This document shows, piece by piece, positions 1,930 to 34,196 of a stretch of DNA of 34,196 bases. Position 1 is the first letter of the stretch; every line of letters begins with the position of its first letter. A program made the position numbers and the translations under genes. The notes below the pieces were generated by a model that did not search any database, was not told the DNA's origin, and saw only the letters and a program-made list of their open reading frames with translations. The DNA comes from a virus, in IMG/VR virus record IMGVR_UViG_3300037517_001919, positions 1 to 34,196 of that record; one strand, written 5' to 3'.

Positions 1930-3704
1930 TGTTTACAATTAACCCATTATATTTAACAGATGGTTATAAAGTAGGTCACAAAGCTATGTTAGCTCCTGGA
2001 ACTACTAGATTATATGGTACGTGGATTCCAAGAAGTACCAAACATGCACCTAAAGGTATTACTAAGATAGTATCATTTGGTCAGCAATTAGCTTGGAAAT
2101 ATATTCATGATGTGTTTGAAGAACATTTCTTTAATCTCAATTTATCAGGTGCTTTAAAATTTGGAGAGGATATGAATAAATATCTTGGAATGGAATATAA
2201 TGATAGACATTTTTTAGAACTTCATCATTTAGGTTACTTACCTTTAAAAGTAAAAGCATTACCTGAAGGTATTGAAACTGATCCTAATATTCCTCATATG
2301 ACCTTCATTAATACAGTTGATGGATTTGCTTGGTTAACTCTTTATATGGAAACTATGGTATCTAATTTAGCATGGAAAGCTTCTACAGCAGCTACTATTG
2401 CTAAGTTATATCGAAGACAAGCTGAAGAGTGGGTAACTAAGACTGATCCTAAAAACTTATGGTTAGTAGATTATATGTGTCATGATTTCTCTGCTAGAGG
2501 ATTGAGTGGTCCATATGATATGATAAGTGTAGGATTAGGTCATGCTACATCATTCAGAGGTAGTGATACATTAGCAGCTATACCTGCTGCTAGATATTAC
2601 TATAATGAACCTAACGATGAAGTTATTATTAATTCTGTAAATGCATCAGAACACTCTGTAAGTACTACTAAGATATTTACTGTTGGTGAGAATCAAATGA
2701 TTGCTGATTGGATTAAACTATTCCCTAAAGGTATATTATCAATTGTATCTGATACATTTGATTTGTGGAAACTTATTACTGAATATTTACCAGCTAACAA
2801 GGAAGCTATTATGGCTAGAGATGGTAAATTAGTAATTAGACCTGATTCAGGTGATCCTGTTGATATTATTTGTGGTGTTTCTACTAAATATGAAGACTTA
2901 ACTAAATGGTTTCCAGAAGGAGATGTTTTACCTAAATATTTCAAAGATTCATTATTAGAAGAAGTAAAAGAAAATACACCTCACGGAGAATATGGAGTAA
3001 CAGAATATACACAAATTTATTTAGTAAGAGGTAAGCTATATAAAGCTACTATACATAATATTCAATGGAATAGATATGATAAACAATACTATTTTATAGA
3101 AATGTATGAAGAAGCTAAAATTACTGTTGAAGAATTAGATTGGAAACCTTCTGATAAAGGCGTAATTGAACTTCTTTGGGATATATTTGGTGGTACTGTT
3201 AATGAGCAGGGCTATAAAGTATTAGACCCTCATATTGGAGCAATCTATGGTGATAGTATTACACCTGATAGACAACGACAAATATATGAGAGATTAGCTG
3301 CTAAAGGCTTTGCTTCTACTAACATTGTATTAGGTGTAGGATCATTTACTTACCAATACATTACTAGAGATACATTAGGATTTGCTGCTAAAGGAGCTTG
3401 GTTTGAAGTTAAAAATGGAGATTCTTGGACAGATGATGATGGAAATATTCACAATGTTAAAAAATCATACAACATCTACAAAGATCCAGTAACTGATGAT
3501 GGTACTAAGAAATCTTTGAAGGGGTTATTACAAGTACAAGATGTTTCTTCGGCTGGAGATTATCAATATGCTGATATAAAAGTTTTTACAGAATGTACTC
3601 CTAAACAAGAAGAAGTAGGCTTACTCCAAGTAATCTATGAGAATGGTAAATTCTATAACCAAACTACCTTTAAGGAAGTTAGGGATAGATTATTAAAAAT
3701 TTAG
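1929..3704 (+). CDS. nadV: Nicotinamide phosphoribosyltransferase (NAMPT/NadV family)
   Basis: Predicted to make nicotinamide mononucleotide from nicotinamide and PRPP, the first step of NAD salvage, in the host cytoplasm. Family landmarks appear in order: TDGYKVGH at the N-terminus (D11, Y13), SARGLSG, the GHATSFRGSDT loop, ASEH with H242 at the catalytic histidine position, SDTFDLW, and RPDSGDP (R304-P310) for PRPP binding. KGVIELLWDIFGGT, GIAYGDSIT-like and GVGSFTYQ segments follow. At 591 residues it is longer than the usual 460-500. The extra length is mainly an insertion of roughly 100 residues between RPDSGDP and KGVIEL, containing an aromatic strand-rich stretch. It overlaps the gene before and lies 4 bases from the HAD gene. 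No NMN adenylyltransferase is visible in the window. Confidence 0.95.
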   Translation: MFTINPLYLTDGYKVGHKAMLAPGTTRLYGTWIPRSTKHAPKGITKIVSFGQQLAWKYIHDVFEEHFFNLNLSGALKFGEDMNKYLGMEYNDRHFLELHHLGYLPLKVKALPEGIETDPNIPHMTFINTVDGFAWLTLYMETMVSNLAWKASTAATIAKLYRRQAEEWVTKTDPKNLWLVDYMCHDFSARGLSGPYDMISVGLGHATSFRGSDTLAAIPAARYYYNEPNDEVIINSVNASEHSVSTTKIFTVGENQMIADWIKLFPKGILSIVSDTFDLWKLITEYLPANKEAIMARDGKLVIRPDSGDPVDIICGVSTKYEDLTKWFPEGDVLPKYFKDSLLEEVKENTPHGEYGVTEYTQIYLVRGKLYKATIHNIQWNRYDKQYYFIEMYEEAKITVEELDWKPSDKGVIELLWDIFGGTVNEQGYKVLDPHIGAIYGDSITPDRQRQIYERLAAKGFASTNIVLGVGSFTYQYITRDTLGFAAKGAWFEVKNGDSWTDDDGNIHNVKKSYNIYKDPVTDDGTKKSLKGLLQVQDVSSAGDYQYADIKVFTECTPKQEEVGLLQVIYENGKFYNQTTFKEVRDRLLKI

Positions 3705-3708
3705 TATC

Positions 3709-4125
3709 ATGAAAAAATACATTGAAAGGCTATTTAATGAGTGGAAGGAACATGGTAATATTATTATAGGACTAGACTTTGATGATACTATCTTCCCTTA
3801 TAGAGAAGATATAACAGATCATGAAGAAGTTATAGCTACTGTAAAATTAGCTGTTAGTACTGGAGCTCGTGTTATTATCTATACAGGATCTGCTCCTGAT
3901 AGATATGACTTTATTAAATCTTATTGTGATAAAATTGGTATAAAAATAACTGCTATCAATGAGAATATTATTATACCATTTGGTGATAATAGGAAAATCT
4001 ATTGTAATGTTTATATAGATGATAGAGCTGGATTAACAGAGGCTTTAAATATCTTAAGACAAGCTACTTATCTATACAGAGCACATAAAATAACTGAATC
4101 AATCACTAACGAACAAGCTGAATAA
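3709..4125 (+). CDS. HAD-superfamily phosphatase
   Basis: The protein has 138 residues with the HAD motif I DxDxT as DFDDT (D23, D25, T27), a motif II strand ending in T (RVIIYTGSA), and motif IV as YIDDRAG. It is a minimal HAD fold without a large cap domain, so it probably hydrolyses a small phosphate ester, a nucleotide or a polynucleotide 3'-phosphate. Its position 4 bases after the NAMPT gene suggests a role in nucleotide or NAD metabolism, for example removing a phosphate from a mononucleotide; that link is inference. The exact substrate cannot be read from the sequence. Confidence 0.8.
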   Translation: MKKYIERLFNEWKEHGNIIIGLDFDDTIFPYREDITDHEEVIATVKLAVSTGARVIIYTGSAPDRYDFIKSYCDKIGIKITAINENIIIPFGDNRKIYCNVYIDDRAGLTEALNILRQATYLYRAHKITESITNEQAE

Positions 4126-5141: not shown

Positions 5142-5215
5142 GGGCCTTTAGCTCAGTTGGTCAGAGCAAATGACTCATAATCATTAGGTCCTTGGTTCAA
5201 TCCCAAGAAGGCCCA
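5142..5215 (+). tRNA. tRNA with anticodon CAU (elongator Met or Ile2)
   Basis: All arms can be drawn. The acceptor GGGCCTT (5142-5148) pairs perfectly with AAGGCCC (5208-5214), with discriminator A at 5215. The D stem is GCTC/GAGC. The anticodon stem AATGA/TCATT holds the loop CTCATAA, giving anticodon CAT. The variable loop is AGGTC, and the T stem CTTGG/CCAAG holds the loop TTCAATC. The 3' CCA is not encoded (ACAA follows). Position 1 pairs with position 72 (G:C), which argues against an initiator tRNA. Whether it is read as Met, or as Ile2 after lysidine modification, cannot be decided by eye. Phages with AT-rich genomes often carry tRNA-Ile2, because AUA codons are frequent in such genes. 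Confidence 0.93.
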
Positions 5216-5231
5216 CAATTAAAACAAAACT

Positions 5232-5534
5232 ATGGTAAAAATAGATTTACAACAAGAAGAAATAATAGAAGATTTACTAAAAAGGCAGTCGCCAGAGTAT
5301 AATAACCTTAAAGCTGCTGAGGAGTTTCAAGAACTATCATTAGCTTTAATGCAGAAGCACTTAAAGCCTAATAAGGTCAAAGATCAAGAAATTATTGATG
5401 AGATTGGTGATGCTATTATTAGATTAAATATACTATGTAAAAAGTATGATAGTACTTTAATAAATCATAGGGTTTATGAAAAGTTATCTAAATTTGCAGA
5501 GTGGTCTAAAACAAAAAGATTTGAACAAATATGA
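5232..5534 (+). CDS. MazG-like nucleotide pyrophosphohydrolase
   Basis: This protein has 100 residues and is all-helical. It shows the paired acidic motifs of the MazG/dUTPase-like all-alpha NTP pyrophosphatase superfamily: a helix with E30, E31 and E34 (AAEEFQEL), and a second helix with E57 and D60 (DEIGDAIIRL). Such enzymes bind Mg and hydrolyse (d)NTPs to the monophosphate and pyrophosphate, or degrade alarmones. It overlaps the next gene by 4 bases. Two other proteins with this kind of fold occur in the window, at 13248 and 25900, and they differ in sequence. Confidence 0.8.
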   Translation: MVKIDLQQEEIIEDLLKRQSPEYNNLKAAEEFQELSLALMQKHLKPNKVKDQEIIDEIGDAIIRLNILCKKYDSTLINHRVYEKLSKFAEWSKTKRFEQI

Positions 5535-6316
5535 GTAAAGAAGACTTATCAAAAGACTTACCAAAGATTAATATAACTTGTAGTAGAAATCCTCTACATG
5601 AGGGTAGAAGTACAGGATTAGCTTATGCCCTACTAAAGAAAATTGATGATAATACGTTTGAAACTATTAGCCCATTTTCTTGCTGTAAAGATTATCTAAA
5701 TGATGTTATTTACACTGAAAATACAGGTGTAACTATGAATGCCTGTGGTCTTAAAACATTACCTAAAACTGGTATCTTAGAGGAAGATTATATTTATATG
5801 GGATTAACCTGCTTGTATACGAAGGATAGTCCTTATAGTGAATATAACTTAATTTACAACAATAAACTCAGACGTAATCGTACTCAAGACTTAAAGTTTT
5901 TAAGAGAAAACTTACAAACTGTAATAAAACCTTTAAATGAGATTGAACGTTTAGGTGATTTAGAATTAAGTACAATTTACTCAGCTAAATGTTCTGATGA
6001 TAAATCAGAATATTACATAGTTAAACTATCTAGTTATTGGGGTAAAAGTGGTGTATTAATTTCATTAGCTTCTGGGTTATTAAGACTTGGTATGCAGTAC
6101 AATGATAATACCAATATAAAAGATTTTTGTATGGAAGAGTCTAAAAATCATAATACTGATATAGGTTTGATGGTAAAAATATTAAAACTAATCAAATTTA
6201 TAGAATTAAGTATTGTATCCGTACAACCATTCATTTATATGGAACATCAAGATTACGAACAATATAAAAGTAATCCATCCCAATATCATTCATTAGGATT
6301 TCAAAGCGTATTTTAA
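5531..6316 (+). CDS. Phage protein of unknown function (261 aa)
   Basis: Nothing in the protein is recognised with confidence. It has a Cys-containing N-terminal part (ITCSRNP, FSCCKDY, NACGLK, GLTCLY) and a C-terminal helical region ending FQSVF. The early cysteine cluster could hold a metal, but the spacing is irregular. It is coupled to the MazG-like gene by a 4-base overlap and followed 3 bases later by the next gene, so it is part of a co-translated run of small unknown genes ahead of the DNA polymerase. Confidence 0.65.
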   Translation: MSKEDLSKDLPKINITCSRNPLHEGRSTGLAYALLKKIDDNTFETISPFSCCKDYLNDVIYTENTGVTMNACGLKTLPKTGILEEDYIYMGLTCLYTKDSPYSEYNLIYNNKLRRNRTQDLKFLRENLQTVIKPLNEIERLGDLELSTIYSAKCSDDKSEYYIVKLSSYWGKSGVLISLASGLLRLGMQYNDNTNIKDFCMEESKNHNTDIGLMVKILKLIKFIELSIVSVQPFIYMEHQDYEQYKSNPSQYHSLGFQSVF

Positions 6317-15446: not shown

Positions 15447-15460
15447 AACATTTAATGTTG

Positions 15461-15483
15461 GTGGGGAGTGTAATGCTCCCCAC
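15461..15483 (+). other. Stem-loop between ssb-like and primase genes
   Basis: GTGGGGAG (15461-15468) pairs perfectly with CTCCCCAC (15476-15483) around the loop TGTAATG. No T-run follows, so it is better read as an mRNA 3'-end stabiliser, a processing site or an attenuator than as a full terminator. It lies inside the longest possible primase frame, which argues that the primase starts after it, at ATG 15497. Confidence 0.65.
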
Positions 15484-15496
15484 TGCATTACTCACT

Positions 15497-16822
15497 ATGA
15501 CAGCACTATTTGATCTAAACAATCTACTAGCACCATTAACTCCTGAAGAAATCTTAAAAAGAGTAACTCACGAGGAATTATGGTTCAGGTATTATGGTAA
15601 ATTTGAATTAAATAAGAAGATAAGGATTCCTCATTTTCTTAGGGAAAGTAATAAGGAAGATAATAATCCCTCAGGATCATTTTTACTAAGTGCTACTCTT
15701 GAGATATTATTATACGATCATGCTTACCATCAAACATATAATATATTTTCTTTCCTAAGAAAACAATATCCTAGTAAGTCATTTAATGATATATTAATTA
15801 TGATTAATGAGGATTTTAACTTAGGAATAGGTACATCAAAAATTATAAAAAAACCAATGCTTCAACAAGCAACATATTTAGAAAGACAAAAAAATGATGA
15901 TACTGTAAGTAGTTATTCTACAGCTGTAGATATAGACATATCTACTACTATGATGGATAAGTTTACTCCAGAAGCATTAGCATATTGGAAAAGTCATGGT
16001 ATATCAGAAGATACCTTAATATTTTCAGATGTTGTACAAATAACAGGATATACTATAAAAAAATATGATACAGATACTAGAGAAATGAAGGAGATGAAAT
16101 ATACAGCAAAGAATAATGAGTTATTATTTGCTTATATATTCTTTGATCCTAGTACTAGATATAAAGAACTTGCTTCTATTAAAATCTATGCTCCCCATTC
16201 TAGTAATAAATGGATTACTAATACTACTAAATTTGTAATAAATTTTAGTAAACAAATCTCTACAGTAATAGATTATTTCAATTTCTTATTCTATAATTCC
16301 AATTGGGATAGTTTACAAGACCTACCAGAAGGGATATTCCTTACAGATTTCAAATATAGCCCACTATTTGATAGACTGCCTATCTTTGTAGAAATAAATA
16401 AAACTTATGAAACTACAGATATAGTTCAAGAAGAGTATTACGGTATATTTAAAAATATAATTCAGTCATCATCATTGAAAGATAATATGGCTTGGTTAGA
16501 ATTAGGTTATTTAAGTTTCTCACAACAAGCAGAATATGGTAAACTATTCAATAGGGTTGTTAGCAAGGATATCTTAAAACCATTTGAAAAGGTAATCATA
16601 AATTATGATAATGATACTGCAGGATATAATAATGCTTTAGAACTACAAAGAAATTCAGGGCATTTTATAAAGGATCTAACTAGATCGTCAGTTTTAAATT
16701 TATTATTTGTTGGAGACTCCAATAATAAAGATATAAGCGATTACACAAAAACCTATGGGTTTAAAGAAACTTTTAAAAGATATGGTAGAGAAAATTTTGC
16801 CTTATACGCCAGAACCGAATAA
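15497..16822 (+). CDS. DnaG-type primase with degenerate zinc site
   Basis: ATG 15497 (MTALFDLNNLL) is preferred to ATG 15455, because the upstream start would place the strong hairpin at 15461-15483 inside the coding region. The N-terminal part matches the primase zinc-binding domain layout (IPHFLRESNKEDNNPSGSFL; a Tyr/Phe-rich segment) but the whole protein has no cysteine, so zinc cannot be held by Cys. The C-terminal TOPRIM-like part has IINYDNDTAGYNN with D371 and D373, and ends KDISDYTKTYG as in phage primases. The expected TOPRIM glutamate motif EGxxD is weak, perhaps VEINKTYETTD. It makes RNA primers for the replisome. The last 68 bases overlap the next gene. Confidence 0.7.
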   Translation: MTALFDLNNLLAPLTPEEILKRVTHEELWFRYYGKFELNKKIRIPHFLRESNKEDNNPSGSFLLSATLEILLYDHAYHQTYNIFSFLRKQYPSKSFNDILIMINEDFNLGIGTSKIIKKPMLQQATYLERQKNDDTVSSYSTAVDIDISTTMMDKFTPEALAYWKSHGISEDTLIFSDVVQITGYTIKKYDTDTREMKEMKYTAKNNELLFAYIFFDPSTRYKELASIKIYAPHSSNKWITNTTKFVINFSKQISTVIDYFNFLFYNSNWDSLQDLPEGIFLTDFKYSPLFDRLPIFVEINKTYETTDIVQEEYYGIFKNIIQSSSLKDNMAWLELGYLSFSQQAEYGKLFNRVVSKDILKPFEKVIINYDNDTAGYNNALELQRNSGHFIKDLTRSSVLNLLFVGDSNNKDISDYTKTYGFKETFKRYGRENFALYARTE

Positions 16823-17729
16823 GGATTTAAGTTTAGGAAGATTCAGATCTTTCAATGAATTTTCTGACTTCATTAACTCCTTTAATTTTTATGTATTAAA
16901 AATAACAAATCCTAAGTCAACTAGAAATTCTATTTATGGTATTGGTATATACAGACCAGATAAGAATGATATTATTTATATAGAATGTAGTAATTTAAAC
17001 TCATTATTAACAAAGATTAATCCTAAAAATGTTAAGCTAAAGCATTTAGATATTCAATCTTTGTCTCACGATCATGTGCCTGTATCATTATTAAATTACT
17101 TTAAGGAGTTAACAGAAGAGGGTAAATTACTAAATAATGGTGGTATTAATATTAGTCATTTATCATTAGTATTATCTAAGCTATTCGTTTTATTTAAATT
17201 TAAATTCTCAGTTAAAGAACTTGTTAATAATAAATTCTTAAGCTACCCTAAAATTAAAGCTAATTTATTTGATAAGGGATTATTAAATAACTTGCCTATT
17301 AGAGCTATGAGAATTGTTCCTACTTATGATATTGCCTTAGATTTAAAATCATTAGATAGTTCTTATCTTGTATTAGAAGATACTAAAACTCATAAAAGTA
17401 TCTTTCATACTAACTCATTAGATGTTATATTAACAACAAAGTTAGAAGGTTTAACTACCACATTAAAATTCTATGCTGAGTTGTGTAATATCCATTCTAA
17501 TTCCTTTAATGGGTATAACCCACCAAAAGATAAGACTATAAGAATTGGTGACTTAACTAAAGTTATTAAAACTGATTTCAAATATAGTCAATTCTTATAT
17601 GGAGATAAGTTAGTAGTATTACAAATATTTCATAACTCCAAAACCCCACAAAAACACTCTGCATTATGCGAGAGAACAAAAGATGGGTTTCAAGCATTAA
17701 TTCACATCAATAATTTAAAGAAATTATAA
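16755..17729 (+). CDS. Phage protein of unknown function (324 aa)
   Basis: No family is recognised. The protein starts MGLKKLLKDMVEKILPYTPE, contains mixed strands and helices with many Asn, Leu and Lys residues, and ends LIHINNLKKL. A later ATG at 16782 is an alternative start that would shorten the overlap with the primase from 68 to 41 bases. Its stop overlaps the ATG of the ATP-grasp gene (TAATG at 17727-17731). The coupling to the ligase cluster suggests a possible accessory role there, but no motif supports a specific function. Confidence 0.65.
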   Translation: MGLKKLLKDMVEKILPYTPEPNKDLSLGRFRSFNEFSDFINSFNFYVLKITNPKSTRNSIYGIGIYRPDKNDIIYIECSNLNSLLTKINPKNVKLKHLDIQSLSHDHVPVSLLNYFKELTEEGKLLNNGGINISHLSLVLSKLFVLFKFKFSVKELVNNKFLSYPKIKANLFDKGLLNNLPIRAMRIVPTYDIALDLKSLDSSYLVLEDTKTHKSIFHTNSLDVILTTKLEGLTTTLKFYAELCNIHSNSFNGYNPPKDKTIRIGDLTKVIKTDFKYSQFLYGDKLVVLQIFHNSKTPQKHSALCERTKDGFQALIHINNLKKL

Positions 17730-18637
17730 TGGAACACAAACCAATTCCACTTAAAGTAACAAAAAAGACTATTAAAAAAACTACTACAACTACCACTGTA
17801 GGTAAGAAGGAGTATACTAAATTTAGAGCTCAAGTAAGATCAAGACATCCATCACATGATGCTATTAGAGGTACTTTAGGAATGTATCCTAAAAGAGTAA
17901 TTGTTCGCTTTGGTAGTTCTACGCCTACACTAGGTAACCCTATTGAAATTAATAGTATTAAAGCTTGTCAGACATCAGCTAATAAATTAGCTATGAAGAA
18001 AGCTTTTTTAGAACATAATGTTAAAACTGCAGAATGGTTTGTTTTAAATGGTAAGGAATTTGTTAGTAACGATAATAAAGTTAGCTTACTACAATTACCT
18101 TACCCAATGGTAGCTAAATCACACTTCGGTTCACGAGGTAATGGTAATTATCTTATCGAATCTGCTGAGGATATGGAAGTATTCTTAAAAGATATGAAGG
18201 ACAAAACTGGTTCTAATTATATCTTTGAGAAATATTATAACTACGATAAAGAGTACAGATTACACGTAACTAAAGACGGTGTATTCTATACTAATCGTAA
18301 AATGCTTAAGAAAGATACACCAGAGGATCAACGCTGGTATAAAAATGATAATAACTGTGTATGGATTTTAGAGGAAAATCCGTTATTTGATAAACCTACA
18401 TGCTGGAATAAAATTGTAGAAGAGTCTGTTAAAGCTCTAAAAGCTGTAGGATTGGACTTTGGTGCTGTAGATGTACGCGTACAAAAGAATACTACAGGTA
18501 AAACTAAAATTAAGAATCGTGAGGTTGTAGATTTCATTATTATTGAGATTAACTCAGCACCTTCATTTGGTGAAGGTACACTTAAAAAGTATCAACAAGA
18601 ATTACCAAAACTTATAAAAAGTAAATTCAATGATTAA
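17729..18637 (+). CDS. ATP-grasp ligase (RimK-like)
   Basis: The protein has 302 residues. A basic Thr-rich tail (residues 7-22, including TTTTTT) is followed by an ATP-grasp fold. Visible landmarks are: FGSSTPT and the helix around KLAMKKAFLEHNV in the N-terminal part; the ATP-binding VAKSHFGSRGNGN with K130; YIFEKYYNYDKEYRLHV; GLDFGAVDVRV; and the metal-binding IIEINSAPS with E273 and N275. These enzymes join a carboxylate to an amine or thiol through an acyl-phosphate. It is coupled at both ends (start overlap with 16755; 8-base overlap with the amidoligase). Together with the next four genes it forms the apparent amide-bond synthesis cluster. The substrate is not known. Confidence 0.88.
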   Translation: MEHKPIPLKVTKKTIKKTTTTTTVGKKEYTKFRAQVRSRHPSHDAIRGTLGMYPKRVIVRFGSSTPTLGNPIEINSIKACQTSANKLAMKKAFLEHNVKTAEWFVLNGKEFVSNDNKVSLLQLPYPMVAKSHFGSRGNGNYLIESAEDMEVFLKDMKDKTGSNYIFEKYYNYDKEYRLHVTKDGVFYTNRKMLKKDTPEDQRWYKNDNNCVWILEENPLFDKPTCWNKIVEESVKALKAVGLDFGAVDVRVQKNTTGKTKIKNREVVDFIIIEINSAPSFGEGTLKKYQQELPKLIKSKFND

Positions 18638-19580
18638 AATTGCTCATATTGGAACCGATCCAGAATTTGTAGTATTAGATGCTGAAGGTAATTTAGCCTC
18701 ATCTATAGATTTCTTACCTGGTACTAAAGAAACCCCATTTGATTTGGGTAATGGTACTTACGTACAAGTTGATAACGTTATGGCTGAATTTTGTGTTCCT
18801 CCTACAAATTCGCCTAAAGAATTATGGGATGCTTTACAGTATGCTAAACAAGCAGCCCTACAATTTTTACCAGCAGGATATTCATTTGCTACTATAGCAA
18901 GTGCTGTATATCCTGATAAACTACTAGATAACCCAATTGCTCAGGTTTTTGGTCGTGAACCAGATTTTACACCATATTATCCTAAGGGTACATTAAAAAA
19001 TAATGTTTCAAATAGAATTACTGATCTTTTTAGTGGTAGTATGAGAGTTAACCCAAAACCAAATTGTGCAGATAAAAATTTAAGATCTTGTGGTGGTCAT
19101 ATCCATTTAGATTACTTTGATTCTATTTGTATTATTAAAGATCCTACTACTTTACAAAGACTTACTTCTATTATAATCTTGTTATGTGATTTGTATTTAG
19201 GTATCCCTTCTGTATTAGAAGACCCTGATACTAACAGAAGATTATTATATGGTAAACCAGGATCTCACCGTCCTAAAAGTTATGGTTTAGAATATAGAGT
19301 CCTTTCTAATTATTGGTTAGAGTCTTTAGATATGATTACTGCTATCTTTGAGAGGATTAAGCTAATAGAAAAAGCATTAAATTCAAGAATAACTAGTATA
19401 TCTGGAGGTACAATTTATGGATATAATGAGTTAAATAGTCATATTAATAGTATATTAAATAAATTTAACATCAATACTATTGAAGATCTTGACGATATTA
19501 TTATTAATAACAACACTAAGGTTGCTGGAGAAATCTGTAGCTTCTTAGAAATCAAACCGTTAATTAAAGAAAAAGTATAA
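18630..19580 (+). CDS. PhiEco32-like COOH-NH2 ligase type 2 (amidoligase)
   Basis: The protein has 316 residues and belongs to the glutamine-synthetase-like COOH-NH2 ligases described in phiEco32-like phages. Its signature parts are IGTDPEFVV near the start (D10, E12), a metal or ATP motif CGGHIHLDYF (C154-H159), a DPDTNRRLLYGKPGSHRPK segment, and LEYRVLSNYWL (E221-R223). It should form an amide bond between a carboxylate and an amine using ATP. It overlaps the ATP-grasp gene by 8 bases and lies 12 bases ahead of a class II glutamine amidotransferase, as in the phage clusters in which this family was defined. Confidence 0.92.
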   Translation: MIKIAHIGTDPEFVVLDAEGNLASSIDFLPGTKETPFDLGNGTYVQVDNVMAEFCVPPTNSPKELWDALQYAKQAALQFLPAGYSFATIASAVYPDKLLDNPIAQVFGREPDFTPYYPKGTLKNNVSNRITDLFSGSMRVNPKPNCADKNLRSCGGHIHLDYFDSICIIKDPTTLQRLTSIIILLCDLYLGIPSVLEDPDTNRRLLYGKPGSHRPKSYGLEYRVLSNYWLESLDMITAIFERIKLIEKALNSRITSISGGTIYGYNELNSHINSILNKFNINTIEDLDDIIINNNTKVAGEICSFLEIKPLIKEKV

Positions 19581-19592
19581 TCAAAAAAAGAT

Positions 19593-21236
19593 ATGTGTGG
19601 ATTAGTTGGATTTCAATCGATAGATTCTGGTAAACTAAATATACTCAGAGCAAAAATGTTATTACAATATCTTTCAGAATCTAGAGGTAAAGATTCTACT
19701 GGAATCTTTTCACCAGAAATTGGTGTAGTAAAAAATGCAGATTCTGCCTCTAAATTTCTTGAAGGTATGTATGATACTAAAGATATTGACTTTAGTAAAC
19801 TAAATGACTCTAAAATATTTATAGGTCACGTACGACAAAAAACTCATGGTGAAAAGAAAGCTACAAATGCTCATCCTTTCAGATATGAGAATATCGTAGG
19901 TGCTCATAATGGTGTAATAAACAATCATACCAAATTAATACCTGAGGGTCAATTTCCTATTGACTATCCTGTAGATAGTATGGTTATATTCGCCAGATTA
20001 CATAAAGATAATAATTACAAAGTACTATCTGAAATGATAGGTGCTGCAGCAATATTATTCTATAATTATAAGGAACCTACAATTCTTTATGCTTATAGAA
20101 ATAGTGATAGGCCCTTATGTTATGGGTTTATTGAGGGTGAGGGTATTTACTTTGGTTCTACAGAAGAATCTTTAAAAGTAATTGATTGTACTAATATCAA
20201 AGAAATTAAAGAAAATATATTGTATAAATTTGAGAATGGTAAAATAAAAACCAGTTTCAAGGTAGCAAGAGCTTCTGATCCAGATAGTCTTTTAGTTTCT
20301 AATTTCTCTGAAATTAAAGAGCTTAAAGATTTATTTGGATTTAATTTATTAGTTAAACAAACATCAAGTTATTATAATAAGGGTATTCTGAATGATTCAG
20401 ACTACACTTATATAAAAGGTTATATTAAAGCTAGTCATGGTCCAGGTAATAGTTCTTTTCAAGTACAAGCTGCTCAAAACTTTGAAGATAAGGATAATTC
20501 AGGTTCAGTTTATACATCAGAGTTAGATATAAATTCTTATAATGCTTTCTTTAAAAAAGGTAATATTGTAAGAGCTGTACGAGACTTTGATTATCAAACT
20601 ACTAAGAAGAATAAAAAGAAAGTAAGAGCTTGTATTAAACATGAATTATTTATTATAGTTAAACCACTTACATCAAGAACTCAAAGAAGTGTAACTGTCA
20701 CATCCTTACTAGACTCTAACAAGGACTTATTAATGGATGTATCTCATTTAGAAGCTATAACAACTCAGAAACTGTTAACAGAAACTGCTGATGAGATAGG
20801 CTTTAAACTTGAAGATGAGGTAAAAAGAGTGGAAACACTTATTGACAGTGTATCTCCAGAAGAGATTAATAAGTTTAAAGGTATTACTGAAGAGAAAATC
20901 TATTCAGTATTAGATACTAAATTACGTAAAGTACTTAATTTAGAGTCTAAAGCTTTAGATAATAATCAATTTAGAAGTATTATTGAAAATCAATTAAACT
21001 TAAACTTTGATGAGCTTGATAATAATAATTTAACTAAAAGTCTAGAAAGAACTTACCAAAATATAACAAAATTAAAAGAGCAAATTGCTAATAGTTTAAA
21101 TTTGTTAGGTGATGACTTCAAAATAGGTGATTTAGCCTTAGCTACCCTTTTAGATGAATTAGAACAAATTTCTATGGATGTAATATCCATTTATGATAAT
21201 CATTCTGTCGAAAATAGTGAACATGCCTTAAGTTAA
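19593..21236 (+). CDS. Class II glutamine amidotransferase with long C-terminal extension (first copy)
   Basis: The Ntn-type glutaminase domain occupies the first 200 or so residues. The catalytic Cys is at position 2 (exposed after Met removal), followed by ESRGKDSTG (30-37), GHVRQKTHG (78-86), NAHPF (92-96), AHNGVINNH (104-112) and PVDSM. It is expected to release ammonia from glutamine for a partner, or to cut a glutamine-like amide. About 320 residues follow with no recognised domain, the last 150 of them charged and helical (likely coiled coil). No synthetase or isomerase domain is attached, so it is neither GlmS, PurF nor AsnB. It is paired with the COOH-NH2 ligase just upstream. Confidence 0.88.
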   Translation: MCGLVGFQSIDSGKLNILRAKMLLQYLSESRGKDSTGIFSPEIGVVKNADSASKFLEGMYDTKDIDFSKLNDSKIFIGHVRQKTHGEKKATNAHPFRYENIVGAHNGVINNHTKLIPEGQFPIDYPVDSMVIFARLHKDNNYKVLSEMIGAAAILFYNYKEPTILYAYRNSDRPLCYGFIEGEGIYFGSTEESLKVIDCTNIKEIKENILYKFENGKIKTSFKVARASDPDSLLVSNFSEIKELKDLFGFNLLVKQTSSYYNKGILNDSDYTYIKGYIKASHGPGNSSFQVQAAQNFEDKDNSGSVYTSELDINSYNAFFKKGNIVRAVRDFDYQTTKKNKKKVRACIKHELFIIVKPLTSRTQRSVTVTSLLDSNKDLLMDVSHLEAITTQKLLTETADEIGFKLEDEVKRVETLIDSVSPEEINKFKGITEEKIYSVLDTKLRKVLNLESKALDNNQFRSIIENQLNLNFDELDNNNLTKSLERTYQNITKLKEQIANSLNLLGDDFKIGDLALATLLDELEQISMDVISIYDNHSVENSEHALS

Positions 21237-21241
21237 AAAAT

Positions 21242-22963
21242 ATGTCATTAGAAGAAATATTAAGAAAACCTGGAACGTATGGGTCTGGGCCTAAAAAACC
21301 AAACAACAAACCAAAAGATAAAACGGTTAGAAAACTTGATATTGGGAAGTCTTTAAAGAGCTCAGCCTTCTCAAGTAATACCTGGGATATTATAACAGAG
21401 GCATATGATTTAAGAGTAAAATCTTCTATACTATACTTACTGTCTAATTATTCTAGAAGAATTGGTGCTGGTTTATTAGGGTCTAATAAGGCTGAAATCA
21501 AGGAGCCCACATTAGATGTTTTACAAGAAACATTTAATGAGATGAGTAAAAATAATACCTTTACTTGCTCATTAACTAAGTTAAAAGTGCCTGCTGACCA
21601 CTTTGCTCCTAAGAATGTAATAACGAAATTTGATGTAAATAAAAATATTATTACACCTCATTTTGAGAAAGCTTTAGATGTATTTATGGAAGGATTACCT
21701 TCCTATATAGATCATAAAACAGGTCATATCTATAAAGTTACAATACCAGCTTTAGAAACTTTAATATCAGAGACTCCAGCAGATACTATTGTAGAATTTC
21801 CTGGTATAGGAGCTTTTGGTGTTAATACTATAGATAAAGACCTTGTTAGCTATAGGGATTATAATAAGTTTGATGAGAAGATTTCTTTCAAAGAGGTAAG
21901 AGATAAGGAGAGTGCTTATAGATTTGGTCTTCAAAGCCCCTCTTTCAGATCTACATTTGGTCTAACATACACCTTTGGTGTTGAAGTAGAATGTGCTACA
22001 TCTTTTGTAGCTAATAATGTAAAGAATATCTTTAATATGTCTTGCGTTAGAGACGGTTCTCTAAATGGTGGTAAGGGCGGACCTGAATATGTTACTGGTG
22101 TCTTAACTGGTGATGCTGGTCTTATGCACTTACAGAAAATAGTAAACTATTTATCAGCAAGATCTACTATTGATAAGTATTGTGGTATACACGTACATGT
22201 TGGTGGATTTGTACCTAGTCAAGAGTTTAGTGTAGCTATATTCTTACTTTGTCATGCCCTTCAAGATGACATATTCTTAACTCTACCTATTACTCGTAGA
22301 TCTAATGAATATTGTAGACTTATACCAAACAGTATTATTAAAAAATTAGCAGCACAACATAAAACTAATACTATTGATAAATTCGTTGTAAACAGAATTT
22401 ACGATGATATTGTTGAATATGTTGGTGCTCTAGACTTGTTAGGTGGTAAAGAACAATTCTTGTTAAGTAAAGCTAAGGACAAAAATGCTCCTTTAGGTAA
22501 ATACTTAAATAAGAATTGTAATCACCCAATGGGTAAGAAAGCTAATTACAATCATAAAACACCAAGGTATGAGTGGATAAATCTTGTACCATTACTATTT
22601 AATGAGAAAGGTAAGGATGTCTTTACTATTGAGTTTAGACCTCACCCAGCATCATTAAACTTTATTAAAATTAAAAACTGGATATTGTTATGTATGTTTA
22701 TTACTAAATATGCTGAAACTTATGCTAGTAGAATTATATCAAATTTCTTATCTGGTAACTTAAAACCTCTTACAATCGAACAAGTATTAGAAGATATCTG
22801 CCCTTTAAAAATTGAAAGCGCATCACTATCTAAATACTTCAATGAGCGTAAGAATAAGTTTGACTCTAGTTCGAAAAACTTAGAGAAGGAAGAAATTAAA
22901 GAGTACGAATCTGAATCATTAACTGTAGTTAAAGACCTAAAATTGAAGGAAATATGTGCATAG
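21242..22963 (+). CDS. Amidoligase_2-like enzyme (second amidoligase)
   Basis: The protein has 573 residues. A basic Pro/Lys N-terminal tail is followed by about 220 residues of unknown fold. A glutamine-synthetase-like amidoligase core then shows FGVEVECATSF (E248, E250), CGIHVHVGG (C314-G322, with H317 and H319) and FTIEFRPHPASLNF (near residue 463), which match the metal, ATP and acyl-phosphate positions of the Amidoligase_2 group. The C-terminal 60 residues are acidic and helical. It begins 5 bases after the first amidotransferase and overlaps the second by 10 bases. This is a second, diverged amide-forming enzyme beside the phiEco32-type ligase. Confidence 0.82.
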   Translation: MSLEEILRKPGTYGSGPKKPNNKPKDKTVRKLDIGKSLKSSAFSSNTWDIITEAYDLRVKSSILYLLSNYSRRIGAGLLGSNKAEIKEPTLDVLQETFNEMSKNNTFTCSLTKLKVPADHFAPKNVITKFDVNKNIITPHFEKALDVFMEGLPSYIDHKTGHIYKVTIPALETLISETPADTIVEFPGIGAFGVNTIDKDLVSYRDYNKFDEKISFKEVRDKESAYRFGLQSPSFRSTFGLTYTFGVEVECATSFVANNVKNIFNMSCVRDGSLNGGKGGPEYVTGVLTGDAGLMHLQKIVNYLSARSTIDKYCGIHVHVGGFVPSQEFSVAIFLLCHALQDDIFLTLPITRRSNEYCRLIPNSIIKKLAAQHKTNTIDKFVVNRIYDDIVEYVGALDLLGGKEQFLLSKAKDKNAPLGKYLNKNCNHPMGKKANYNHKTPRYEWINLVPLLFNEKGKDVFTIEFRPHPASLNFIKIKNWILLCMFITKYAETYASRIISNFLSGNLKPLTIEQVLEDICPLKIESASLSKYFNERKNKFDSSSKNLEKEEIKEYESESLTVVKDLKLKEICA

Positions 22964-24699
22964 TATGTGTATTCCCAAAAGGGATAGATAAAACAACAGC
23001 CGAAGTAAAACAAGCTATAGAAAGTGGTTTAAGTACTAACGATCATAGCGCAGGTTTTGCTTTACGTCGTGCTGGTGAATCTGAAATTTATATTAAAAAA
23101 GGTTACGTACGTAAAGTAACTGATATTTACAAAGATATTATGGGACTAAAACCTGGTATTGATGATGTACTTATTGTACATGGTCGTATAGCTACTCATG
23201 GTGGTAATACTGCGGAATTAGCTCACCCATTTGTATGTTCTGAAGATTTAGATGAAGTTTTAACAACTGAAGGTAAAGTTACTAAACCAATATTAGCTCA
23301 TAATGGAGTATTTAGAGGTTTAGGTGATAGGGGATTACTAGCTAATAATTCAGACACTTCAGACTTTGCTCATAAAATAGCTGGTTCTAAGTTATTTCAA
23401 ACAGCCCTGTTTAGAAATCCTAAAAAAGTAGAGAGGCTATTAGACTCAGCTCCTTATAATATTTTAAGTTGGAGTAAGGTAGTATTCTTATACCCAATAG
23501 CTGATACTGAACCAGTTTATATTGGTACAGGTTGGAAAACTGTAGATAACTTAGGAGTATTTTCTAATGAAGGATACTCTAGAAAAGTTTATGATTTTGG
23601 AGGATCTTCATCAAACCCCCATCTGGCTCTGCAATCGACTTCAAAGAGTGGAGTGAACAACAACATATGTGGTGTTACTAATAAAAGTCTTGTAGGGCCT
23701 CAAACTGAAATAAATAGGAATGAGGAGGATTCTAACGATGAGATCTTTTTTCGCTACGACTCTTATGGGGTCTGTTCTACTTTCAGTAATTCTACTTTTA
23801 GGGTTAACGTATATAATTATCCGTTTCTTAACTTTAGGGTAGATAAGGTTATTTATAATAAAATGATAGCTAATAATAATTATCGTAAATCTTATGGTGT
23901 TACAACTTCTGATTTAAAACTATTGAATAGTTTATTATTCTTTGTAAATTATAAAATAATGTCATTCTCAGATGAGGATTGTTTTATAAAGTATGACTCT
24001 ACCAATAATATGTTAAATGTAAACAGAGTTAACGTTTCTAATGTCGATAAAAATGTATTTATCGAAACACCAATTAGATTATTAGAGAGCGTATTTATTA
24101 TAGAACCTAAATGGGCTAAACGTAGCAGAGTAGATCAATTAACTGGTGAAATTATTACTGATAGTGTAAGTAATATGGCTTTAAGTAATTTTATAGTTTC
24201 TTATAATGCCTTACGTAGACTCTCATTATTTAATAAGGATGGTACTATTAGTTTAAGTTACACTAAAAAGCTCTATAATATTGTAGAGGATAATATTTAT
24301 ATTTGTAAAGATGAGGAATTTATAAGAGCCTTTAATTCAAAATCACATTCTAATAGAAAAGGTGTGATTATTAAGAATAATTGTAGGTCCTTATTTATGT
24401 TAGGAGAGAATCTTATAAAGAAGATAACAAGTAATACTAATGTATTATTATATGATGTATCACCACTAGCTTTAGCATTATTTCTTTTAGAAAGATCTAC
24501 AAATTTAACTAAGTTCCAAGAAGAAAGTATTAAAGAAGCTATTAGCTCTTTTGCTTTCTTAAATCAGCTTATTAAATCTGACTTCATGTTCTATACTCCT
24601 TATAATGTAGAAACTAGTAATTTAGATTTTACTAGAAATTCAAGTAAGGCTAATCCTAAGGAGTACAATCCAAAAGAAGTACCAATTCTTTTAAACTAA
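22954..24699 (+). CDS. Class II glutamine amidotransferase with long C-terminal extension (second copy)
   Basis: Catalytic Cys2 is followed by DHSAGFALR (31-39), VHGRIATHGG (75-84), AHPF (90-93), AHNGVF (115-120) and NSDTSDF (132-138). These are the usual class II glutaminase positions in the same order as the first copy, but with clearly different sequence. About 380 residues follow with no recognised domain; part is Asn/Ser-rich. Its start lies inside the stop of the amidoligase (10-base overlap), so the two are made in step and may act as a complex. No acceptor synthase domain is present. I infer that it feeds ammonia to, or trims the product of, the second amidoligase. Confidence 0.87.
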   Translation: MCIVCVFPKGIDKTTAEVKQAIESGLSTNDHSAGFALRRAGESEIYIKKGYVRKVTDIYKDIMGLKPGIDDVLIVHGRIATHGGNTAELAHPFVCSEDLDEVLTTEGKVTKPILAHNGVFRGLGDRGLLANNSDTSDFAHKIAGSKLFQTALFRNPKKVERLLDSAPYNILSWSKVVFLYPIADTEPVYIGTGWKTVDNLGVFSNEGYSRKVYDFGGSSSNPHLALQSTSKSGVNNNICGVTNKSLVGPQTEINRNEEDSNDEIFFRYDSYGVCSTFSNSTFRVNVYNYPFLNFRVDKVIYNKMIANNNYRKSYGVTTSDLKLLNSLLFFVNYKIMSFSDEDCFIKYDSTNNMLNVNRVNVSNVDKNVFIETPIRLLESVFIIEPKWAKRSRVDQLTGEIITDSVSNMALSNFIVSYNALRRLSLFNKDGTISLSYTKKLYNIVEDNIYICKDEEFIRAFNSKSHSNRKGVIIKNNCRSLFMLGENLIKKITSNTNVLLYDVSPLALALFLLERSTNLTKFQEESIKEAISSFAFLNQLIKSDFMFYTPYNVETSNLDFTRNSSKANPKEYNPKEVPILLN

Positions 24700-24703
24700 A
24701 ACC

Positions 24704-25168
24704 ATGAGAAGAAGACACAAAAAACCAAAAATTAGAAACGATACAATGGTTAAAAAACCACCAAAGGCTCCTAAGGCAACTAAGGTTGATAATAGGAAAG
24801 TCAAGAATGCTAGAATAACTGTAATAGATGGTATAAAGTTTCACTCTGCATTAGAAGCTTTTACCTATAAGCTACTGTTAGAATCAGGTTTAAAATTTGC
24901 TTACGAACCCACATCATTCGAACTTATTCCCCCATTCGAATATGATGGTAAAAAAATACGTGGAGCAACTTATAAACCTGATTTTGTCGGTATAGATCAG
25001 GACTGGATAATAGAAGTTAAAGGATTTGAAACAGATGCCTTTAAAATCAGATGGAAGTTATTTAAATATATTTTATCAACTTCAGAAAAGAAATATAAAC
25101 TATTCTTACCAAGAAACCAAAAAGATGTAAGGGAAGCTATTGAGAAGATAGTAAACAAAGAAACTTAA
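24704..25168 (+). CDS. PD-(D/E)XK endonuclease (DUF1064-like)
   Basis: The protein has 154 residues. A strongly basic tail (Lys/Arg/Pro, 1-33) is followed by a compact nuclease fold: FHSALEAFTY with E51, YKPDFV with D93, and WIIEVKGF with E104 and K106, matching E...PD...ExK. The arrangement resembles DUF1064 and other small phage resolvase or endonuclease proteins. It could cleave branched DNA during replication or degrade host DNA. It sits between the amidotransferase and the FEN-type exonuclease, in a DNA metabolism run. Confidence 0.82.
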   Translation: MRRRHKKPKIRNDTMVKKPPKAPKATKVDNRKVKNARITVIDGIKFHSALEAFTYKLLLESGLKFAYEPTSFELIPPFEYDGKKIRGATYKPDFVGIDQDWIIEVKGFETDAFKIRWKLFKYILSTSEKKYKLFLPRNQKDVREAIEKIVNKET

Positions 25169-30035: not shown

Positions 30036-33000
30036 TTAATAATTATTATACCAAGGATCTTTAATTAACTGGTTATAAGCAACAGAGAAAGGCATTAAAG
30101 TTGTAGCACCTTTCATACCCACTAAGTCCCCATCTCTATTAGTATTTCCTTCTAATAAACCACTAAAGAATAATTTATCAACACCTTCACCAGTCTCTAA
30201 TAAAGCTGGTAATATTACAGTTGGTTTATTAACTAAGTTCAACATCTCTAAGATATTAAATTCAATAGTTAAGTCTCTTAACAAGTCTATACTTCTACGT
30301 TTAAGAACATCTTTGTCGTCATCATCAGCATCACCATAAGCATATATAATACCCATAGTACCAGCTACCCAAACAAATAAGTTTAAATACTGATTTAAAA
30401 CTAATTGTTTTTGTTCTGGTGATAATGTAGACCATACAGTAACAGCCTCTTTAGAATCGTTTAGCATAGCTTTATTTAAGTAAAGTCCTCTCATCATCAT
30501 CTTATAACCTCTTAAGATAACATCATTATAAGCAACACTAGCAGCTAACAAGGACATACCTTTATCTAATTGAGCTTCCCATCTTAATACTGGATTACCA
30601 TCAACTTCTATAGGCTTACCACTGTCATGATCTAATACTTCTATATACTTACCAAGTGAGGCATTTTCAAACTCTCCTTGGAAAGCCATCTCAAACTTAT
30701 TAGGTATAAACTTCTTAAACTGTAAGAACATAGCTGTGAAGGCATTAGATTCCATCTTACGTTTCATTTCAGGATCATATTCACCTACAATTCTAGCCAT
30801 AATCTTCTTGAATTTTAAAAGCTCTTGAGCTGTCATTCCACTAATAACTTCACCGTTTTCAGTTACACCTCTAGTACCACCTTCCCAAACCAACTGACCA
30901 TCTTTTACATTGTAAGCATCCCACATATTGGTTTCACCATTAGCAGTTTTAATTTTCTTATTCTTTAATATACTAATAAAGATTAATGAGTTAGCTAAAG
31001 AATCACCTAAACCATAAGTCATATAAAGCCATCTATCATCAACAGCTTTATTTCTAGCCATAGTTAACATTTGTTTACTATTAGCACTAATGAACTGCTG
31101 TTGCTTTATATTATATATATCATCAAATAAGGTAAGCTTATCAACTTTACCTGTAAGTTTATTATATAAGTGTTGGAAGTATATACCATAAGCTTGGGTA
31201 AGTGTAGATAAAGACCAGTTGATGTCATCCTCTTCTATACCATCTATACGTTTAGCTAAACTACCTTTAACAGCATCTTTAACAGTATTTAACTGGTTTA
31301 ATACTAAGTTAACAGTAGCACCTAATGTAGAGAATGAGAGCTTAGCCATTGTAGCTAATCCCATAAGGCTTCTTAATGCCCTTTCTCCAGATACTTCTAT
31401 ACCTAATACTTTCTTACGTTTATGTATGTTTGAAGCTAAGTTATTTTCTTCTTCATTATAAACTTCATGTAAGTTATTATCAATATAAGATCTTAAGAAA
31501 TTAGCAGAGTTTTTCATAGCACCTATCTTAGAACCACCTGATTCAAATATAGTAGCTAAACTTAAACCATAAGCAGATACATTATCATAGAATCTTTTAT
31601 TTATCATGTTCTTAGCAAACAGTTTCATGATTAATTCTGTATGCATAGTTTGATTAGGACTATGTGCATTATAGTTATTAATATACTTTAATGGTACACC
31701 AGCTCTACGTAAACCAAAGGTATCAGCAGGCTTAGCACTGTAAGCTGTTACTTTATGTAAAGCCCAGTTTCCTAAAGTATTAATAATCTCCTTAGTTTCA
31801 GTAATACTATACTCTCCTGTAAGCTTAGGTAATCTTGGTGTGAAGTCTTCAGTGTAAACAAAATACTTACCAAGCTCAGCTTCCCACTTCTCAACAGGTT
31901 CCATATCTAAATACATATCTATTTTAGCTTGGTACTTAGCAGCAAGTTCTTGTTTAGTGAATAGTCCTATCAATAAGTCTGAATCAACATTATCTAACTT
32001 ATTCTTATAATACTTTAAACCTCTAGTAGTTGATAATGTGGAGAATAACATATCTCTAATACTATCTCTATAGAATACATTATACTTCTTCTGAGCAGTA
32101 GATAATAAAGCCCAATCAGTACTAGTTTCAGTTTTAATAGTCATACCATCCCCTTCAGATGTATCCCACATAAATTTAAATGCTTTCTCATAGTTAAGCA
32201 TATTTAAACCTATCTTACCACCAATCATAGATAAGAAGTTATTACCATAGTATTCTTTTAATACATCTTTAAGTAAAGAGTCAGACTCTCTAAATAACTT
32301 ACTTCTAGTTTCTGATATAAGTTGTAATGCCCTAGTCCGAAGCTTCATGAAAGTCTTCAAGAGCGGATTCTTAACATTAAATCCTACTGAAGTATAGGTT
32401 TCTTTTATATCTATATCAGAATTAACATCTGTCATAGATCCAAATTCAGCACCTTCTAATTCAGATATCTGTAATATTAATGACTCTAACTGCTTTTTAA
32501 CTAGTGGGTTAGAATTAATATAAGCATCAGTTAATGGTTGCTTATCCTTACCTCCAGATCTTTGTAGAGTATCTAATTGCTCATATAATCTTTGTAATAC
32601 AATTTCTTTAGCTGCGAATACTGAAGCTGCTCCTTTCTTTAACTCTTCATTAATACGATCAGATACATTAGTAGATATAGCTACATATTCCTTATGATTT
32701 AACAGATAACTATTAGTCTTAATAAAGTCATTAGGATTATGTGTAAAGTAACTAGCTAAGTTTAATAATACAGAGGACCTATCAACTTCTAATAAAGCTG
32801 GTGTAGTAGTATGTTTATTTAAATTAACTAATGTTATATTTCTAAATCTAGCATTAGGATATAATGATTTAACAAGTAAAGCATAAGTACCTAACTGCAT
32901 TTGATAGTTATTAGTAGAATTAAATAACATACCAGTACGCTCAGCATACTTCATTTCACCGAAATCTTCATTAGGGTTAAATGATTTACCTGTCTTAAAG

Positions 33001-34196
33001 TCAATAATTGAGAAGGTACCATCAGCATGCTCTATTAACATATCTATTGTTCCACCCAAGTTTAACTGTTCATTGTATACTAAGAACTCAGAATGTATCT
33101 TATCAGTAGGTTGTATATTCAACCTTTCCATAAGGGCAGTTAAATAAGTATCATTACCCTCAATCCAATTGAAGTCAGAATCTTTACCACCTAAAGTTAT
33201 ATATTGTTGTAGTAAATCAGCTTTCTCTTGACCAAACTTTTGAAACTGTGGATCACTATTACCTACAGTATACATCTGTATAATCTTATGTATAATTTTA
33301 CCAGTTATTCTACTACGCTCACCAATCTTAGTAAAGTAGTCTAATAACTCTTCATAAGTAACTAGTGTACCAGTCCCATCTGGATGTTGTACAGGCCTAC
33401 CTAATAAGGTATTTACCTTACCATAGTACTTCTTAGCCATTACCTCAGCTTGAGTTAACTTCCTATTGTAACTTAAAAAGTTACCTAAGAAAGTACTCAC
33501 ACGATCTAATACTACAGATCTACCAGTAGAAGATACTACAGTATATCCTGTATCTCCTTCAATACCAGTCTGTTTAGTAATAGTGTAGTTATTATTTAAG
33601 TACCTTAACTCAGATGTCCCTTGAACATTACTAATGGTATCCGAGAACTCAGGACCATTTAACATCAGTTCAGCTAATTTAGAGATACTTGTTTGAGGAT
33701 CTAACTCAGTAATATTGGTAGGTTTATATAATCCTATTACACGCATTATAGCTTGATATACGCGCTTTACAGCACTTATAAGGGTATTAGTCCAACCAGA
33801 GGTTAATCCTACGCCATATCGTCCTATAGCGGTTACTATAGCCTCGTCTATCTGATCTTCTAATGAGAGGTCAGGATAGCTAAGTTTAATCTCAGCTAAG
33901 ATAGGACTATCCAGTATATTACGTTTTAAGTTATCATATAGAAGCTTGTTCTTAGACTTAATCATTATTAATAGTCCGTGACCAAACTCGTGTATAGGAG
34001 TTTCTAAACTATACTTATTAGAGTTTATGTATACCTTACCATTATGGAAGAATCCATATATATCAGGATTTAAACCTAACGACTTAACTAACTCACTATT
34101 AGTAAAGTCTAATACCTCATACTCAAACTTCAGTTTAGAAGCTAATTTACTAAGAAGTTTATTAACTACTCTAGAACCAACTACCTTATTACTATA
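30036..34196 (-). CDS. Giant multidomain phage protein with zincin and RecB-like nuclease motifs (5' end outside window)
   Basis: The frame stays open to the right edge: 77 more codons lie beyond the first internal ATG at 33965, so at least 1386 residues are visible and the N-terminus is missing. In order on the minus strand: a zincin site TPIHEFGHGLL (HEFGH at 33978-33992) followed by DEAIVTAIGRYG with a possible third ligand; a RecB/Cas4-type nuclease with GKIIHKIIQMY, GGTIDM, IIDFKTGK (DFK at 32994-33002) and QMQLGTYALL; a long helical region; and a hydrophobic stretch near 30340-30390 followed by an acidic GDADDDDKD. Such polyvalent proteins in crAss-like and related phages are thought to be packaged and ejected into the host. 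That role is inference. Confidence 0.85.
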   Translation of the reverse strand, partial: YSNKVVGSRVVNKLLSKLASKLKFEYEVLDFTNSELVKSLGLNPDIYGFFHNGKVYINSNKYSLETPIHEFGHGLLIMIKSKNKLLYDNLKRNILDSPILAEIKLSYPDLSLEDQIDEAIVTAIGRYGVGLTSGWTNTLISAVKRVYQAIMRVIGLYKPTNITELDPQTSISKLAELMLNGPEFSDTISNVQGTSELRYLNNNYTITKQTGIEGDTGYTVVSSTGRSVVLDRVSTFLGNFLSYNRKLTQAEVMAKKYYGKVNTLLGRPVQHPDGTGTLVTYEELLDYFTKIGERSRITGKIIHKIIQMYTVGNSDPQFQKFGQEKADLLQQYITLGGKDSDFNWIEGNDTYLTALMERLNIQPTDKIHSEFLVYNEQLNLGGTIDMLIEHADGTFSIIDFKTGKSFNPNEDFGEMKYAERTGMLFNSTNNYQMQLGTYALLVKSLYPNARFRNITLVNLNKHTTTPALLEVDRSSVLLNLASYFTHNPNDFIKTNSYLLNHKEYVAISTNVSDRINEELKKGAASVFAAKEIVLQRLYEQLDTLQRSGGKDKQPLTDAYINSNPLVKKQLESLILQISELEGAEFGSMTDVNSDIDIKETYTSVGFNVKNPLLKTFMKLRTRALQLISETRSKLFRESDSLLKDVLKEYYGNNFLSMIGGKIGLNMLNYEKAFKFMWDTSEGDGMTIKTETSTDWALLSTAQKKYNVFYRDSIRDMLFSTLSTTRGLKYYKNKLDNVDSDLLIGLFTKQELAAKYQAKIDMYLDMEPVEKWEAELGKYFVYTEDFTPRLPKLTGEYSITETKEIINTLGNWALHKVTAYSAKPADTFGLRRAGVPLKYINNYNAHSPNQTMHTELIMKLFAKNMINKRFYDNVSAYGLSLATIFESGGSKIGAMKNSANFLRSYIDNNLHEVYNEEENNLASNIHKRKKVLGIEVSGERALRSLMGLATMAKLSFSTLGATVNLVLNQLNTVKDAVKGSLAKRIDGIEEDDINWSLSTLTQAYGIYFQHLYNKLTGKVDKLTLFDDIYNIKQQQFISANSKQMLTMARNKAVDDRWLYMTYGLGDSLANSLIFISILKNKKIKTANGETNMWDAYNVKDGQLVWEGGTRGVTENGEVISGMTAQELLKFKKIMARIVGEYDPEMKRKMESNAFTAMFLQFKKFIPNKFEMAFQGEFENASLGKYIEVLDHDSGKPIEVDGNPVLRWEAQLDKGMSLLAASVAYNDVILRGYKMMMRGLYLNKAMLNDSKEAVTVWSTLSPEQKQLVLNQYLNLFVWVAGTMGIIYAYGDADDDDKDVLKRRSIDLLRDLTIEFNILEMLNLVNKPTVILPALLETGEGVDKLFFSGLLEGNTNRDGDLVGMKGATTLMPFSVAYNQLIKDPWYNNY

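Follow-up and report, generated by a model that had tools for sequence, protein, structure and literature searches.

A phiEco32-type amidoligase cassette with an added class II glutaminase in the replication block of a putative crAss-like phage

The DNA analysed here, virus record IMGVR_UViG_3300037517_001919 of IMG/VR (34,196 nucleotides, hereafter the window), is a genome fragment, and 20% of it (6,971/34,196 bases, positions 17729-24699) is occupied by five intact + strand open reading frames (ORFs) whose products are predicted to be enzymes of amide-bond chemistry. In order, these are an ATP-grasp carboxylate-amine ligase resembling RimK and MptN (17729..18637, 302 amino acids), a phiEco32-type COOH-NH2 ligase (18630..19580, 316 amino acids), a class II glutaminase with a GlmS/PurF-like Ntn domain at residues 1 to ~220 (GAT1; 19593..21236, 547 amino acids), an Amidoligase_2 protein with a glutamine-synthetase-like ligase domain at residues 243-559 (21242..22963, 573 amino acids), and a second class II glutaminase in which an Ntn domain (1-213) is followed by a C-terminal extension (GAT2; 22954..24699, 581 amino acids). 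The successive junctions measure -8, +12, +5 and -10 nucleotides, and the cassette adjoins a DNA primase gene, with one ORF between them. A PADLOC run returned no system.

The catalytic residues are conserved in all three ligases and both glutaminases. The ATP-grasp protein matches phrog_2599 (1.2e-32); its match to PF02222 (5.9e-6, 26.5 bits) lies 0.5 bit short of the cut-off of 27, and its NCBIfam matches, rimK_fam (1e-9) and MptN (1.6e-9), are each below cut-off. It is 38-57% identical to 39 aligned relatives from IMG/VR, and K130, E167, D248 and E273 are unchanged in 40/40 sequences. A pattern-based scan of 85k genomes for this protein, of limited reach, returned one phage-like contig. Long C-terminal extensions of ~150-230 residues are present on the ATP-grasp proteins of four relatives (L003, L056, L062 and L066). 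The COOH-NH2 ligase scores 41 bits against PF14395 (1.7e-10, cut-off 25) and matches phrog_3815 (5.3e-48), with D10, E12, D48, N49, E53, R152, H157, R203, R214, E221 and R223 invariant in 38 sequences. GAT1 scores 55.6 bits against GATase_6 (7.4e-15, cut-off 27); its residues C2, R31, H79, R81, N106-G107 and D128 are unchanged in 42 sequences, and its C-terminal region is poorly conserved. The Amidoligase_2 protein reaches 56.4 bits against PF12224 (5.1e-15, cut-off 22). Its domain was modelled with a predicted local distance difference test (pLDDT) score mostly >90, and all 50 of the 50 VIA matches listed for the model are enzymes of the GS/GCS/YbdK/Dop fold (Z 10.0-11.9); PafA and Dop are among its Foldseek matches.

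GAT2 has no Pfam match, and it was its motifs and modelled fold that allowed it to be placed. All 15 family members compared retain the motifs Cys2, HxR, HP, HNG and SD(T), and C2, H76, R78, P92, H116-N117-G118 and D134 are invariant among them. An AlphaFold2 model of residues 1-213, with pLDDT mostly 80-96 and one block near 58, superimposes on the glutaminase domain of GlmS with Z 15.3 (root-mean-square deviation 3.2 over 177 residues) and on EgtC with Z 14.0. At ~12-17% sequence identity, both of these proteins have the same fold and the same catalytic residues as the N-terminal domain of GAT2. GAT2 is thus a class II glutaminase, with a modelled Ntn-hydrolase fold. It carries the motif N-x-D-G-x-G where GAT1 and GlmS have R-G-x-D-S. 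The C-terminal ~370 residues (214-581) were modelled with pLDDT <50 nearly throughout, and this region is dispensable in the family, since relatives of 220-241 amino acids lack it. With GAT2 so placed, all five domain assignments made in a preliminary description of the window were borne out, as was its estimate that the cassette takes up about a fifth of the window.

Gene linkage was compared in 80 ATP-grasp loci from IMG/VR, together with Amidoligase_2 loci, in which ORFs were called and labelled by profiles; removal of near copies left 75 loci for adjacency counts. In all 59 loci that have both, Amidoligase_2 comes immediately after GAT1, the two genes mostly overlapping or lying <=13 nucleotides apart, and Amidoligase_2 is directly followed by GAT2 in 14/14 loci. 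The COOH-NH2 ligase lies immediately 5' of GAT1 in 44 of 61 loci and adjoins the ATP-grasp gene in only 5/61. The slot after Amidoligase_2 holds either GAT2 or a uracil-DNA glycosylase (UDG), never both in one locus. All five genes occur together in nine independent flanked loci, the window included, and additionally in L031 and L079, and no fusions among the five proteins were seen across the relatives' loci. The five-gene amide-bond set is real and far beyond chance. The part of it that does not vary is the pair GAT1-Amidoligase_2, and in one lineage GAT2 has joined this core immediately on the 3' side. This fixed core, with a separable ATP-grasp protein and COOH-NH2 ligase, is a guide to the proteins that should be co-expressed first. 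In six of the relatives (L103, L009, L050, L051, L062 and L084) ORFs that probably encode homing endonucleases interrupt genes of the module or lie between them; in L103 (4175-6899) the frame of the COOH-NH2 ligase stops ahead of two LAGLIDADG-like ORFs.

A maximum-likelihood tree places GAT1 and GAT2 in separate clades (100/100). GAT1 clusters with the glutaminases phiEco32_83, PaP3_45 and RIO-1_9 (100/100), while GAT2 clusters with those of small amidoligase+glutaminase units in Methylophilales phage MEP402, Mycobacterium phage Marvin and a Christensenellales phage (100/100). The window cassette thus brings together, around a single ligase, glutaminases that belong to two phage types already known. 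The GAT1 proteins of the GAT2 carriers form one clade (96/97), the two further members of which, L054 and L070, end before the GAT2 slot. A recent duplication of a glutaminase is ruled out by the separation of GAT1 from GAT2 and by this single GAT1 clade, and GAT2 was probably gained once and then inherited alongside GAT1. In quick trees the ATP-grasp proteins and COOH-NH2 ligases of carriers are intermixed with those of non-carriers, and the carriers' Amidoligase_2 proteins form a cluster that takes in two non-carrier rows. When the enzymes of Marvin and the Christensenellales phage are added to the Amidoligase_2 tree, long branches meet; this ligase may or may not have arrived together with GAT2. 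In single-sequence scans with Amidoligase_2 and with GAT2, the sole match of each was a copy of the same phage.

Cassettes of this type are mostly already known, and the new part is the second glutaminase. Their prediction reportedly originated with Iyer et al. 2009, as cited by later papers. In phiEco32 a gamma-glutamyl cyclotransferase (GGCT), an ATP-grasp protein, a glutaminase, an amidoligase and a COOH-NH2 ligase are encoded beside the primase/helicase, and in PaP3 and RIO-1 both ligases, an ATP-grasp protein, one glutaminase and a GGCT are encoded beside the primase; the link to phiEco32-type cassettes drawn in the preliminary description is thus upheld, and the nine independent loci above bear out that the five genes are found together elsewhere. 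Like the window, phiEco32, PaP3, LUZ24, UFV-P2, RIO-1 and PSA-HP1 have an ATP-grasp protein, PF14395 and PF12224 ligases and one class II glutaminase by the primase; the window departs from them in its gene order, in carrying a further glutaminase that belongs to a different family, and in the absence of a GGCT from the part of the genome covered. Because phiEco32, PaP3, RIO-1 and UFV-P2 (PMC3890496) already carry both ligases, the ligase has not been doubled in the window, contrary to what had been proposed, and the separate families of GAT1 and GAT2 contradict the companion proposal of a diverged glutaminase double. Nor do the genes form two ligase/glutaminase pairs, since the adjacency counts give a fixed GAT1-Amidoligase_2-GAT2 triad and two separable ligases. 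The two-step pathway on a virion protein, the host envelope or a nucleotide, also put forward in the preliminary description, is no more than possible. For PSA-HP1, the set has been presented as a cassette that modifies peptidoglycan, with the hypothesis that this blocks superinfection, and the other carriers were listed (PMC5498523); the same hypothesis accompanies the cassette in PMC10580990. The carriers span unrelated phages of enteric, Pseudomonas, marine, Bacteroidota and cyanobacterial hosts.

A close parallel is found in Cellulophaga phage phi14:2 (Crassvirales, Asinivirinae), whose genes g038-g041 encode an ATP-grasp protein, a COOH-NH2 ligase, a glutaminase and an Amidoligase_2 protein in the order seen in the window. 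The ATP-grasp proteins are 47% identical and the Amidoligase_2 proteins 28% over the domain; phi14:2 differs in having a GGCT upstream and a UDG instead of GAT2 after Amidoligase_2. In MEP402, Marvin and the Christensenellales phage a GAT2-family glutaminase (profile E 1e-39 to 5e-21) lies 3' of a PF12224-like ligase, the MEP402 genes overlapping by 10 nucleotides exactly as do Amidoligase_2 and GAT2 in the window. The ligases of MEP402 and Marvin score just below the PF12224 cut-off. No ATP-grasp, PF14395 or GAT1-type protein is annotated in the stretches of these phages that were compared, where several neighbours are hypothetical proteins. Their match to GAT2 makes these minimal units, such as Marvin gp105-gp106 and MEP402 gp06-gp07, small model systems in which to look for the reaction.

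The loci of relatives also carry enzymes of gamma-glutamyl metabolism. Among 58 flanked loci a GGCT (PF06094) is present in 46 and a C26 hydrolase (PF07722) in 50, examples of both being confirmed by Pfam. Both families cleave gamma-glutamyl amides, which makes it plausible that the cassette follows a logic, analogous to that of the ergothioneine, butirosin and Puu pathways, in which a gamma-glutamyl group is put on and later taken off. Since relatives usually add enzymes that remove gamma-glutamyl groups, gamma-glutamyl or amide chemistry is indicated.

Taken together, the data suggest to us, with a probability of about 0.6, that the window carries a lineage-specific form of the phiEco32-type amidoligase cassette within a crAss-like replication block, and that its five proteins would work as one cytoplasmic amide-bond pathway with glutamine as the source of nitrogen or of glutamyl groups. 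The GS-like Amidoligase_2 could activate a carboxylate with ATP and convert it to an amide, GAT1 could supply the nitrogen by hydrolysing glutamine, and the ATP-grasp protein and COOH-NH2 ligase could add further glutamate-like units. A possible role for GAT2 would be a second supply of ammonia, or the stripping of a gamma-glutamyl group in the manner of EgtC. The leading, though on balance doubtful, candidate for the acceptor comes from a published conjecture and is a precursor of the host envelope or peptidoglycan, which would be modified early in infection against superinfection; a metabolite, a protein or a nucleotide are further candidates. Several points weigh against this interpretation. 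Neither GGCT nor C26 is found in the window or in an overlapping 35.5 kb record, both of them parts of a fragmentary genome, and the gamma-glutamyl reading therefore depends on what relatives carry. The substrates of GGCT and C26 are free gamma-glutamyl groups, a poor fit to the D-iso-glutamate linkage within peptidoglycan. We infer the order in which one enzyme would feed the next from linkage alone, and no assay or product of any cassette member is reported in the literature searched.

The alternative that survives best, although it is on balance doubtful, is that GAT2, instead of supplying ammonia, is an EgtC-like gamma-glutamyl hydrolase which does the work of GGCT and C26. The ligases would attach a gamma-glutamyl handle, and GAT2 would take it off once tailoring of the acceptor is complete, as happens in the synthesis of ergothioneine or butirosin. 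The N-x-D-G-x-G motif of GAT2 would agree with this, and EgtC is among its best fold matches, although GlmS scores slightly above it. Where GAT2 is missing, C26 and/or GGCT lies nearby in 39/40 loci, and both in 34/40, whereas neither is nearby in 4 of 11 GAT2 carriers, as compared with 1/40 loci without GAT2; both are also wholly absent from three records of 65-83 kb. The suggestion that GAT2 is able to replace these enzymes is nevertheless a weak one, because one clade carries most of the signal. The carriers are essentially one lineage, in which the loss may reflect shared ancestry, some records are incomplete, and 4/11 carriers keep both enzymes. An extended version, in which Amidoligase_2 and GAT1 would place the handle on a phage product and an EgtC-like GAT2, akin to the hydrolase of the small amidoligase/glutaminase units, would close the cycle in place of the ancestral C26 and GGCT, we consider unlikely.

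It is similarly improbable that the target is a protein, with glutamate or short peptides being added by the ATP-grasp and GS-like ligases to host or virion proteins, as by RimK and the Pup ligase. The best curated relatives of the ATP-grasp protein include the RimK-family alpha-L-glutamate ligase, but these matches are far below cut-off; PafA and Dop match the Amidoligase_2 model, but GS, GCS and YbdK match it as well as Dop does; and while a conserved orphan family found next to the module in several relatives could be an acceptor, no conserved acceptor tail was identified. Least probable is modification of a nucleotide or DNA base, in which an amide-linked group would shield the phage genome. 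It would suit the place of the module in the replication block, where the primase is its neighbour in phiEco32, PaP3, RIO-1 and the majority of crAss-like relatives, as well as the UDG that follows Amidoligase_2 in many of the latter, but many unrelated early genes share that block, and no base-modification enzyme was found among the window proteins scanned, which represent part of its ORFs. We know of no nucleoside data for cassette-bearing phages.

The primase gene 5' of the cassette (15455..16822, + strand) matches a crAss-like primase family profile (1.7e-27). Because of this match, and because, of eight large records with GAT2 that were tested, seven have the crAss-like terminase and major capsid protein, we regard the window phage as probably crAss-like; in the window, as in the fragment that overlaps it, neither of these two proteins is found. 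That fragment (L005/L007, IMGVR_UViG_3300035662_001474) encodes identical cassette proteins and is expected to extend ~12 kb past the right end of the window. The ORF between primase and cassette (16755..17729, + strand) encodes a 324-residue protein without an assigned family and overlaps the start of the ATP-grasp gene by 1 nucleotide. It has no match in Pfam or NCBIfam and matches only phrog_13658, at E=0.028, and its only relatives are overlapping copies of the same phage. Just 3' of the cassette lies a gene for a DUF1064/resolvase-like nuclease (24704..25168, + strand; PF06356 5e-11, phrog_190 1.2e-19).

Elsewhere in the window, the orphan family mentioned above is represented by a protein of 261 amino acids (5531-6316) with a C[KR]DY..D motif; its kin lie near the module in L003, L015, L026, L058, L064 and L079, making it a candidate acceptor or partner. 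A nicotinamide phosphoribosyltransferase gene (phrog_448, 4e-156) and a gene for a small phrog_1238 protein, annotated as phosphoheptose isomerase but HAD-like in appearance, follow one another at 1929-4125, a pair that could serve NAD salvage against an NAD-depleting defence. A single tRNA-Met(CAT) gene is present at 5142-5216. Finally, a protein of at least 1386 amino acids is encoded on the - strand at 30036-34196 and runs off the window; it contains an HEFGH metalloprotease-like motif and an exonuclease domain (phrog_298, 7.6e-13).

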